DNA of 8,156 nucleotides, from positions 1-8,156 of the forward strand of contig CAMLSB010000073.1 in NCBI GenBank assembly GCA_946482565.1. Direction: 5' to 3'. A model generated the notes under the pieces. That model worked only from the letters and a program-made list of their open reading frames with translations, did no database searches and was not told where the DNA came from. Source of the stretch: an uncultured Lysobacteraceae bacterium. Lineage in GTDB: Bacteria; Pseudomonadota; Gammaproteobacteria; Xanthomonadales; Xanthomonadaceae. Below, one piece after another: positions 5,303 to 8,156 of the stretch; position 1 is the stretch's first letter; every line of letters begins with the position of its first letter. The position numbers and the translations under genes were made by a program.

Positions 5303-5851
5303 TCAGGCCGCGGCTTGCCTGAATTCGGGTGTGCGGGCCAGCTTCTGCAGGCTGAAGATGGCCCAGGTGTCGTCGCCGAGGTGGTAGGCACGCTCGACGA
5401 AATGGGTGTAGCGGCCTTCGGCCAGCGCCTGTTCGTGGACGGCGTCGTCGCCCAGGCGCTGTTCGTCGACGAAGCTGCGCTGCCCGAACAGTTCGTCGAT
5501 GGTCACGGCGACGTCGCCGCCGGGCTGGCGCACGATCAGCACGCGCTGGCCTTCGTGCAGCACGGTGCGCTCGCCCTCGAGGAACTGCTTGAGGTCGACG
5601 ATCGGCAGCAGGTTGCCGCGCACGTTGGCCACGCCCAGCATCCACGGCTGCGCGCCGGGCACCGGCGTCACCTGCGGCATCGGCAGGATCTCGACCACTT
5701 CCTCGAAGCCCGCCGCGAGGCGGCGGCGGCCGACGCGGAAACCGACGCCGCGCCAGAGGCCGGGCGCGTCGAGCTGCTCGGGCAGGCCGGCGACGTGCGC
5801 CAGGCTGCGCTGCTCGTAATCGGCCAGGATGTCGAAGGGACCGCCGGACAT
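5303..5851 (-). CDS. pilI: PilI, CheW-like adaptor protein
   Basis: Cytoplasmic scaffold of 182 residues that links the receptor PilJ to the kinase ChpA, as CheW does in flagellar chemotaxis. P. aeruginosa PilI has about the same length. The single CheW-like domain is clear from about residue 34 to 172, with the family signature GVANVRGNLLPIVDLKQFL at 73-91 (N-x-R-G, then P-I-V-D-L). The chosen start is the ATG at 5851, which sits one base after the pilH stop (TGA-G-ATG), so translation is probably coupled to pilH. The longer reading from 5863 would begin with TTG, overlap pilH by 11 bases and add only four residues (M-A-P-E), so it is less likely. No enzymatic residues are expected. The final residues are alanine-rich and unremarkable. 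Confidence 0.95.
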   Translation of the reverse strand: MSGGPFDILADYEQRSLAHVAGLPEQLDAPGLWRGVGFRVGRRRLAAGFEEVVEILPMPQVTPVPGAQPWMLGVANVRGNLLPIVDLKQFLEGERTVLHEGQRVLIVRQPGGDVAVTIDELFGQRSFVDEQRLGDDAVHEQALAEGRYTHFVERAYHLGDDTWAIFSLQKLARTPEFRQAAA

Positions 5852-5852
5852 C

Positions 5853-6218
5853 TCAGGCGCCAACCAGCTCGTTGATGCGCGCGACCAGCGCTTCCGCGTT
5901 CGGCGGCTTGACGATGTAATCCTTCGCGCCCTGGCGCAGGCCCCAGGCGCGATCGGTGTCCATGCTCTTGGTGCTCACGATGACCACCGGGATGCCTCCG
6001 GTGGCGGAATCGCGCGACAGCGCACGCGTGGCCTGGAAGCCGTTCATGCCCGGAAGGATGACGTCCATCAGCACGAGGTCCGGAAGCTCGCGCTTGCAGA
6101 CTTCGATGCCTTCCTCGGCGCTGCCCGAAGACAGGACCTGGTGGCCGCTCTTCTCGAGCATCTGGGTGAGGACCGCGACGTCCGTCGGCGAGTCCTCGAT
6201 CAACAGGATGCGTGCCAT
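5853..6218 (-). CDS. pilH: PilH, CheY-like response regulator
   Basis: Single-domain receiver of 121 residues with no output domain. The acidic pair is Glu8-Asp9, the phosphoacceptor is Asp52 (LVLMDVILPGMNG), the switch residue is Ser82 (VVIVSTKS) and the conserved lysine is Lys104 (YIVKPP). The motif LILPGMNGFQATR-like stretch at 54-65 and VSTKSMDTDRAWGLRQGAKDY at 81-101 resemble PilH rather than PilG. In P. aeruginosa PilH dampens the system, possibly as a phosphate sink, and is linked to pilus retraction. The gene starts 20 bases after the pilG stop behind a G-rich ribosome binding site, and ends one base before the pilI ATG. The PilH rather than PilG assignment also rests on gene order (pilG first, pilH second), which matches known clusters. 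Confidence 0.94.
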   Translation of the reverse strand: MARILLIEDSPTDVAVLTQMLEKSGHQVLSSGSAEEGIEVCKRELPDLVLMDVILPGMNGFQATRALSRDSATGGIPVVIVSTKSMDTDRAWGLRQGAKDYIVKPPNAEALVARINELVGA

Positions 6219-6225
6219 GTGTTTG

Positions 6226-6236
6226 CCCTACCCCCC
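6226..6236 (-). promoter_or_regulatory. Ribosome binding site of pilH
   Basis: The 20-base gap between pilG and pilH carries GGGGGGTAGGG on the minus strand, ending seven bases before the pilH ATG. It is G-rich rather than a textbook AGGAGG, but it is the only candidate and well placed. Confidence 0.5.
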
Positions 6237-6238
6237 GG

Positions 6239-6640
6239 TCAGGCGTTGACGTGCTTGCGGATCGCGTCGAGGAGTTCCTCGCGCGTGAATGGCTTGGTGA
6301 CGTATTGCTCGGAACCCACGATGCGGCCGCGCGCCTTGTCGAACAGGCCGTCCTTGGACGACAGCATGATGACCGGCGTGGACTTGAACAGCTGGTTGTT
6401 CTTGATCAGCGCGCAGGTCTGGTACCCGTCCAGGCGCGGCATCATGATGTCGACGAAGATGATCTGCGGCTGCTGGTCGGCGATCTTGGCCAGGGCCTCG
6501 AACCCGTCCGTGGCCGTGACCACGTCCGCGCCCTCGCGCTTGAGCAGCGTCTCGGCGGTACGCCGGATCGTCTTGGAATCGTCGATCACCATCACTCGGA
6601 GGCCATCGAGGCTTCCGGCGCGGCTGTCGTCTGGCGTCAT
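6239..6640 (-). CDS. pilG: PilG, CheY-like response regulator (first gene of the pil-chp operon)
   Basis: Single-domain receiver of 133 residues. After a short polar N-terminal extension (about 1-13) the fold starts at GLRVMVIDDSKTIRRTAETLL, a stretch that matches PilG proteins closely. The acidic pair is Asp20-Asp21, the phosphoacceptor Asp64 (IIFVDIMMPRLDGYQTCALI), the switch residue Ser94 (VIMLSSKDGLF) and the conserved lysine Lys116 (YVTKPF). In P. aeruginosa PilG promotes pilus extension and polar signalling and activates adenylate cyclase CyaB through FimV/FimL; whether a cAMP branch exists here cannot be judged. The ATG at 6640 is supported by a GGGGAG ribosome binding site six bases upstream and by the promoter further up. 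It is the first gene of the pilGHIJ-chpA operon and is divergent from gshB. Confidence 0.96.
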   Translation of the reverse strand: MTPDDSRAGSLDGLRVMVIDDSKTIRRTAETLLKREGADVVTATDGFEALAKIADQQPQIIFVDIMMPRLDGYQTCALIKNNQLFKSTPVIMLSSKDGLFDKARGRIVGSEQYVTKPFTREELLDAIRKHVNA

Positions 6641-6646
6641 TTACTG

Positions 6647-6652
6647 CTCCCC
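6647..6652 (-). promoter_or_regulatory. Ribosome binding site of pilG
   Basis: GGGGAG on the minus strand, separated by CAGTAA from the pilG ATG. Spacing of six bases is near ideal and confirms the start at 6640. Confidence 0.7.
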
Positions 6653-6690
6653 TGCGCGGTGCTCGTGAGTGCCGGCTCCGCTGCGAAACA

Positions 6691-6721
6691 CCTATATCCC
6701 AGCCCACGGCAGGCGTGTCAA
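6691..6721 (-). promoter_or_regulatory. Predicted sigma-70 type promoter of the pilGHIJ-chpA operon
   Basis: The minus strand has a perfect TTGACA -35 box (6716-6721). The -10 can be read as TATAGG (6691-6696) with a 19-base spacer or as GATATA (6693-6698) with a 17-base spacer. This is the only AT-rich patch in the divergent intergenic region. Transcription would start about 45 bases before the pilG ATG. No operator or sigma-54 type box was recognised. Since the downstream genes are separated by at most 42 bases, this promoter probably drives the whole operon. Confidence 0.6.
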
Positions 6722-6784
6722 GTTTCCGTTGGCCGGACCGTGCGCCCGAACACGTTGCATCGCCGCCCGGCCGTTGCGGGCGCT

Positions 6785-6792
6785 GCTACCAT
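6785..6792 (+). promoter_or_regulatory. Weak candidate -10 element for gshB-tonB
   Basis: GCTACCAT (6785-6792) gives TACCAT, four of six matches to TATAAT, and is preceded by T-G in the extended -10 position. It lies about 27 bases before the gshB ATG, implying a short leader. There is no -35 match at 17 bases; the nearest TTGCAT (6755-6760) is too far away. The assignment is tentative. Confidence 0.3.
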
Positions 6793-6818
6793 GCCGGTCT
6801 CCCGCCGCGGACGCCCGC

Positions 6819-7817
6819 ATGGTGCTCGACATCGTCGTCGTGATGGACCCCATCGGGTCGATCCGGATCGCCAAGGACTCCACCTTCGCGATGCTGCTGG
6901 AAGCCCGGCGGCGCGGCCACAGGCTGCATTACGTGGTCCCGGGCGGGCTGGGCGTGCGCGATGGCGCGGCCACCGCCCTGCTGGCGCCGCTCGAGGTCCG
7001 GGACGACCCGGCCGGCTGGTTCGAGCTGGGGACCGCCGAACGCCGCGACCTGGGCGCCGGCGACGTCGTCCTGATGCGCACCGACCCGCCGGTGGACAGC
7101 GAGTACATCCACGACACCCAGGTCCTGGGGCTGGCCCAGGCCGCCGGGGCGCTGGTGGTCAACGACCCGCAGGGCCTGCGCGACTACAACGAGAAGCTGG
7201 CGGCGCTGCGCTTCCCCGAATGCTGCCCCCCGACCCTCGTGTCGCGTGACGCCGCGGCGCTCAAGGCGTTCGTGGGCGAACACGGCCAGGCGGTGCTGAA
7301 GCCCCTGGACGGCATGGGTGGGCGCTCGATTTTCCGGGCTGCCGCCGGCGAGCCGAACCTGAACGTGATCCTGGAAACCCTGACCGATGGCGGGCGCAGC
7401 CTGGCGATGGCCCAGCGCTACCTCCCGGAGATCGCGACGGGCGACAAGCGCATCCTGCTGGTGGACGGCGAGCCGGTGGACTACTGCCTGGCGCGGATCC
7501 CGCAGGGCGACGAATTCCGCGGCAACCTGGCGGCCGGCGGCCGCGGCGAGGCCCGCCCGCTGACCGAGCGGGACCGCTGGATCGCCGCCCGCGTCGGGCC
7601 GGAGATGAAGCGCCGCGGGATGCTGTTCGTGGGCCTGGACGTGATCGGCGACTGGCTGACCGAGGTGAACGTCACCAGCCCGACCTGCATCCGGGAAATC
7701 GACAAGGCCTACGGGCTGAACATCGCCGGGCTGCTGTTCGATGCCATCGAGGAGCGGGGAACGGGGAACGGGGAACGGGGAACAGGACAACGCCGCGGTC
7801 GCGGTCCCGGCGCGTGA
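6819..7817 (+). CDS. gshB: Glutathione synthetase (ATP-grasp ligase)
   Basis: Joins gamma-glutamylcysteine and glycine with ATP to form glutathione, the second step of glutathione synthesis, in the cytoplasm. The 332 residues start at ATG 6819 with MVLDIVVVMDPIGSIRIAKDST, the conserved GshB N-terminus. The frame is open upstream to 6669, but those 50 residues are not GshB-like. The N-terminal domain includes VLMRTDPPVDSEYIHDTQVL (84-103) and NDPQGLRDYNEKL (115-127). The ATP-grasp part has VLKPLDGMGGRSIF (159-172), EFRGNLAAGGRG (232-243) and DVIGDWLTEVNVTSPTCIREI (274-294) with Glu282 and Asn284 as likely metal ligands. The natural end is expected near residue 312. A further 20 Gly/Arg-rich residues come from a heptamer array and look like an acquired tail (E. 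coli GshB has 315 residues). No clear Shine-Dalgarno is seen. Its stop overlaps the tonB start by four bases. Confidence 0.96.
   Translation: MVLDIVVVMDPIGSIRIAKDSTFAMLLEARRRGHRLHYVVPGGLGVRDGAATALLAPLEVRDDPAGWFELGTAERRDLGAGDVVLMRTDPPVDSEYIHDTQVLGLAQAAGALVVNDPQGLRDYNEKLAALRFPECCPPTLVSRDAAALKAFVGEHGQAVLKPLDGMGGRSIFRAAAGEPNLNVILETLTDGGRSLAMAQRYLPEIATGDKRILLVDGEPVDYCLARIPQGDEFRGNLAAGGRGEARPLTERDRWIAARVGPEMKRRGMLFVGLDVIGDWLTEVNVTSPTCIREIDKAYGLNIAGLLFDAIEERGTGNGERGTGQRRGRGPGA
7752..7786 (+). repeat. Heptamer tandem repeat (GAACGGG) within the 3' end of gshB
   Basis: Five 7-base units in a row: GAGCGGG, three perfect copies of GAACGGG (7759-7779) and GAACAGG. They encode the odd GshB tail R-G-T-G-N-G-E-R-G-T-G. 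Since seven is not a multiple of three, each gain or loss of a unit shifts the frame. Similar short G-rich heptamer arrays are, from memory, common between genes in Xanthomonadaceae; here the array sits inside the coding frame. Confidence 0.88.
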
Positions 7818-8111
7818 GCGTGGCGGCGTCGAGGCCACGGATCGGGGAGCGCGAGCGGCTCCACGCCACGATGGTGCTGTCGCTGCTGCTGCACGGGCTG
7901 GTGATCCTGGGCGTGGGCTTCGCGCTCGAATCGGCGGCGCCGGTGATGCCGACCCTCGATGTGGTCCTGACCCAGGCGCGCAACGCGCTGACGCCGGCGC
8001 AGGCCGATTTCCTTGCCGAGGCCAACAACCGCGGCGGCGGCACCGACGACAAGGCCCTGCGCCCGCGCGACAGCCAGGCGGGCCTGGCGCCCAAGCCGCA
8101 GGCCGGCGTGG
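7814..8111 (+). CDS. tonB: TonB-like energy transducer, N-terminal part (truncated by contig end)
   Basis: N-terminal 99 residues of a TonB-family protein, which in complex with ExbB/ExbD uses the proton motive force to drive outer-membrane receptors. A basic N-terminus (RPRIGERERLHAT) is followed by one membrane segment at about 21-38 (VLSLLLHGLVILGVGFAL). It contains Ser23-x-x-x-His27, the same spacing as the Ser16/His20 motif of E. coli TonB needed for ExbB/ExbD coupling. After it comes VMPTLDVVLTQARN, typical of xanthomonad TonB proteins, and the start of a Gly/Asp/Pro-rich periplasmic linker. The C-terminal receptor-binding domain is missing because the insert ends at 8110 or 8111 and adapter follows. 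The GTG at 7814 overlaps the gshB stop (GTGA), suggesting coupled translation. An ATG at 7871 (residue 20) is possible but would remove the basic N-terminus. The family assignment is good; the specific paralogue is uncertain. Confidence 0.8.
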
Positions 8112-8156
8112 AGATCGGAAGAGCGTCGTGTAGGGAAAGAGTGTAGATCTCGGTGG
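8112..8156. other. Illumina TruSeq adapter sequence (artefact)
   Basis: The final 45 bases begin with AGATCGGAAGAGC and continue with GTCGTGTAGGGAAAGAGTGT and the following bases of the Illumina universal adapter in reverse complement. The match is continuous to the window end as far as I recall the adapter sequence. It is less GC-rich than everything before it. Reading the tonB frame into it gives the peptide IGRASCRERV, a known adapter-derived translation. Nothing after 8111 should be annotated as genome. Confidence 0.97.

Follow-up and report, generated by a model that had tools for sequence, protein, structure and literature searches.

The last 45 bases (positions 8112-8156) of the window, the whole stretch of 8,156 nucleotides that was analyzed, are almost certainly an artifact of library preparation, in which untrimmed TruSeq read-through was retained at the end of a contig. 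The tail is not a biological feature; it is an ordinary and common laboratory artifact. Several points were observed directly: the identity of the tail with the adapter, its terminal placement in the window, its outward direction, the break in homology where it begins, a tonB gene that continues in relatives, and the recurrence of the same sequence in other contigs. Nothing among the results speaks against adapter identity. The features that bear on this reading are as follows.

6819..7817, plus strand: gshB, glutathione synthase (TIGR01380, 443.9 bits, cut-off 299)
7814..8111, plus strand: 5′ part of a tonB-like gene, cut off by the sequence end (99 whole codons and one base; tblastn, 80/80)
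8111..8146, plus strand: spurious C-terminus EIGRASCRERV and TAG stop (one chimeric codon followed by adapter sequence; open reading frame 7814-8146)
8112..8156, plus strand: untrimmed TruSeq universal adapter, reverse complement (45/45 match, homology stop at 8111, IMG/VR counterparts)
8113..8133, plus strand: DRKSVV plus stop codon, where a second open reading frame, 7741-8133, terminates (from the open reading frame list)

Identity of the Terminal 45 Bases

The tail is identical at 45/45 positions to the reverse complement of the TruSeq universal adapter, corresponding to the first 45 of its 58 bases. The comparison used a 58-base reference sequence for the adapter. The adapter stands in its reverse-complement form on the plus strand at the right end of the window and points outward. 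It stops 13 bases short of its full 58-base length, nothing follows it in the 8156-base window, and the window end at 8156, which falls inside the adapter, is assumed to be the contig end. AGATCGGAAGAGC, the start of the adapter at the ligation point, occurs in a single copy in the window (8112-8124, one mismatch tolerated), as against an expectation of 0.01 on average in the shuffled window. Given the base composition of the window, the exact 45-mer would arise by chance with a probability of roughly 4 x 10^-29 at each position. On the single copy and the 45-mer probability together, a chance match was rejected. A Nextera end and a TruSeq index adapter were also considered as sources of the tail and rejected, the former having no match in the window and the latter no match, each with up to three mismatches.

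A natural origin of the tail, by a small insertion or a genuine truncation of tonB that coincidentally equals the adapter, is so improbable as to be negligible. In its favor stands solely the presence of these bases in the sequence. Against it stand the chance of the exact 45-mer given above and the base composition of the tail, which differs from that of the body (G+C of 0.533 vs. 0.705). The 32-base core of the adapter likewise has no exact match in 395 genomes, drawn from a larger group, of the family of G003 (the genome holding relative locus L129), and none of 20,395 E. coli genome records matches the tail.

Untrimmed read-through, the preferred reading, can be laid out as a sequence of steps. 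There are no extra bases between GAAAGAGTGT and AGATCTCGG, which, in the design of these adapters, indicates the single-index TruSeq form without an i5 index, and the A at 8112 is consistent with an A-tail added before ligation. A genomic fragment ending at 8111 would have been A-tailed and then ligated to the single-index adapter. If the insert was shorter than the read, the read would have continued into the adapter and, left untrimmed, would have allowed the assembler to extend the contig into the adapter at a point where no further read continued, probably under low coverage.

The Junction and tonB in Related Genomes

The natural neighbor of the tonB-like gene is gshB, which anchors the comparison with relatives. 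A longer gshB open reading frame (6669-7817) contains PF02955 and PF02951, and the tonB frame starts at a GTG that overlaps the stop codon of gshB. The comparison set consisted of gshB genome loci, the best 80 of 564 confirmed, and the closest of these are titled Lysobacter, Luteimonas, and Xanthomonas, among others; the window accordingly reads as part of a Xanthomonadaceae/Lysobacteraceae genome. In all 80 (tblastn, best 80 of 564), gshB is followed by a tonB-like frame, and the N-terminal part encoded in the window is homologous to this adjoining TonB in 80/80 loci. Beyond the match to the 99 natural residues of the window, the open reading frame of the relatives continues for a further 187-198 residues before reaching a stop codon, again in 80/80 cases. 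Three of these relatives (L153, L170, and L195) have record titles reading complete genome, and the continuation of tonB in a closed relative, as expected in the original prediction, is therefore seen in them as in the rest of the set. Scans of L129, L153, and L195 found the C-terminal domain TonB_C (PF03544) in all three. Some database relatives of the tonB product carry the name "energy transducer TonB, partial."

Homology between the window and its relatives ends exactly where the adapter begins. When positions 5801-8156 were compared with the 80 relative loci by blastn, no match extended past 8111. At the level of single bases, 70 of the 80 relatives have a best match reaching residue 99, the 10 with matches ending earlier having been set aside; the G of the window at 8111 is common to 62 of these 70, and the GA at 8111-8112 is found in none of them. 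This break locates the junction at 8111/8112 without recourse to the adapter sequence. True truncation of tonB was rejected on the continuing gene in 80/80 relatives together with the homology stop at 8111. The adapter 13-mer is absent from all 80 relative loci, and a plasmid megablast with the natural sequence 7700-8111 returned no match.

False Protein Ends

Translation through the junction gives false ends to two open reading frames. The frame at 7814-8146 encodes a product of 110 residues that terminates in EIGRASCRERV, with a TAG stop at 8144-8146. Its first 99 residues are natural, the next comes from a chimeric codon, and the last ten derive from the adapter. The original prediction had recognized the tail as the reverse complement of the TruSeq universal adapter and had described a spurious 110-residue protein with this ending; both claims are borne out, and its coordinates for the tail and the TAG are correct. 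One refinement concerns codon 100 (GAG, 8111-8113), which is chimeric, with one natural base and two adapter bases. Since the gene is cut off, TonB_C is absent from the 110-residue product, as expected, and the product matches no Pfam and no NCBIfam family (0 of each). The second open reading frame, 7741-8133, ends in DRKSVV with its stop at 8131-8133; it overlaps both gshB and tonB in a different frame and is regarded as spurious. On the minus strand, the frames at the window end read HRDLHSFPTRRSSDL, TEIYTLSLHDALPIS, and PPRSTLFPYTTLFRS.

Positions 8112-8156 should be masked before annotation; otherwise, a cut-off TonB would be recorded as a complete protein of 110 residues with a false C-terminus.

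Neighboring Genes and Repeats

The minus strand of the window carries a chemotaxis-like cluster, comprising a large Hpt-domain protein that runs off the left end, a CheW protein, two response regulators, and a transducer with an MCP signaling domain and a PilJ match below the cut-off. This cluster resembles the type IV pilus (Pil-Chp) cluster. The window starts within a 15-base tandem repeat (1-98, 6.5 copies, unit CGGCTTCGGCACGCT), which is translated on the minus strand as an AERAE-type repeat of the large Hpt-domain protein and may have broken the assembly at that point. A second tandem repeat, of the 7-base unit GGAACGG (7751-7783, 4.7 copies), is located in the 3′-terminal part of the gshB frame, which thereby acquires a GERGTGNGERGTG-like tail. 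Pairs of neighboring GGGAACG units are missing from the plus strand of all 80 relative loci, whereas GGGAATC units occur there in two of the 80. One database protein, P0009, has a similar NGERGTGNG stretch ahead of its TonB start.

Recurrence of the Adapter in IMG/VR

A scan of IMG/VR for the 45-mer of the tail found it in at least 120 stretches, with 123 matches among those listed. All but one of these (122/123) lie nearer the end toward which the adapter points, and 106/123 lie within 30 bases of that outward end, with 17/123 farther away, where distances were measured to the boundaries of the stored stretches, which for some long contigs are perhaps not contig ends. Among the 106 terminal matches, the rest of the adapter follows, as far as the stretch reaches, in 103. 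Sequence extends past adapter base 58 in 38 of the 106, and all 38 extensions start with A; in 36 of them the extension is A only, four of these being a single A. Runs of A after an adapter are the output of a sequencer once the read has passed the end of the molecule. The A-only extensions (36/106) are thus as expected where a read ran through a short insert.

When the longest frame open into the adapter was taken for each of the 106 terminal matches, 30 ended in RASCRERV, 24 ended in RKSVV, 40 ran through the third frame with EERRVGKEC, and 12 stopped at the junction or otherwise.

The 17 matches lying beyond this 30-base limit at the outward end suggest that adapters are also built into longer joins. 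The tail of the window could accordingly be part of a chimeric join, with the adapter lying between two pieces of a longer record and the window or contig cut inside it. Such a join would still be an adapter artifact, and a phage GenBank record has an adapter between two annotated genes; moreover, that the window's end is the contig's end is itself an assumption. Nevertheless, the window contains nothing beyond the adapter, stopping at base 45 of 58, and the great majority of comparable listed cases (the 106 above) are terminal, so that a chimeric join is very unlikely here and simple read-through at a contig end is the preferred explanation.

Adapter Tails in Annotated Records

A protein database search with the 110-residue product as query returned 61 proteins, in which adapter tails were sought by eight short strings and found in four (P0053, P0058, P0060, and P0061). 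P0053 is a TonB-like protein that is itself cut off by an adapter and contains RSEERRVGKEC. P0058, a distant TonB-like protein also cut off by an adapter, has the terminus IGRASCRERV and shows a 37% match to the 99 natural residues across a span of 94 residues. P0060 and P0061 both contain EIGRASCRERV and score weakly against the TonB query (E of 2.2 and 9, respectively). Neither is TonB-like by Pfam, P0060 having no Pfam family and P0061 belonging to the Mom family. Given these weak scores and Pfam results, the adapter tail is the likely reason that the two matched the TonB query, though a weak pairwise match of 36 residues also connects P0060 with the natural part of the product.

In nucleotide collections, at least 32 bases of the tail are matched by 7/50,697 phage records, and 29 bases by 1/72,556 plasmid records. 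In the GenBank record of a phage (L202, PQ462667.1), a CDS named endonuclease ends HQDRKSVV within the adapter. The DRKSVV tail was examined in IMG/VR DNA and in this one phage record, six residues being too few for protein-database scoring. The claim that both tails recur in public data therefore holds, GRASCRERV being found in P0058, P0060, and P0061 and DRKSVV in an annotated phage CDS.

Two records show further details of annotation around an adapter. In Escherichia phage HMD-P3 (PQ462667.1, 317-1154), an adapter, apparently indexed, lies between the end of one "endonuclease" CDS and another, and KGSKELAYRIEHQ is present in both. This position and the repeated KGSKELAYRIEHQ suggest that the annotation there is affected by an artifact join. 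In MW202825.1 (L201, 693-956), whose record title reads UNVERIFIED_CONTAM, the hypothetical protein UOF82384.1 (87 residues) on the opposite strand enters an adapter and ends in DTLSLHDALPISF.

Adapter-derived tails (GRASCRERV, DRKSVV, RSEERRVGKEC, and the reverse-frame forms) very probably make up a systematic class of false protein ends in metagenome and virus collections that have not been screened, large enough to create false similarity between unrelated proteins. False matches are possible between other tail-bearing proteins, as exemplified by P0060 and P0061 with the TonB query, and a short peptide screen for adapter tails would help to clean metagenomic protein sets. Recognition of this class is useful for database cleaning.

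Comparison with Known Systems

No catalog of adapter-derived protein tails was found in the literature at the level of titles and the opening parts of abstracts. A literature search by adapter-derived peptide strings led to DoMY-Seq, a two-hybrid method for which the available text describes the 5′ TruSeq adaptor as translated into the linker peptide HSFPTRRSSDL (PMC7949039). The minus-strand frame HRDLHSFPTRRSSDL of the window contains this same peptide. In DoMY-Seq, however, the peptide belonged to a planned two-hybrid library, whereas in the window it is an accident.

According to the portion of the Conterminator article available, NCBI detects adapters, among other synthetic sequences, by VecScreen (PMC7218494), and the absence of the adapter 32-mer from the 395 genomes above fits screening of this kind at deposit. 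The available text of PMC10978663 mentions VecScreen and UniVec and contains no word starting with adapter or adaptor. The spurious proteins described for Conterminator likewise arose from short contaminating DNA translated by automatic annotation, but its example proteins are encoded on short contigs that align with the genome of sheep, whereas the contaminant of the window is an adapter (PMC7218494, in the part available).

The closest counterpart is Illumina TruSeq read-through in assemblies, as represented by the IMG/VR stretches (at least 120). There is no difference of substance between these and the window, whose tail falls 13 bases short of the full 58, and the two are alike both in sequence and in outward orientation.
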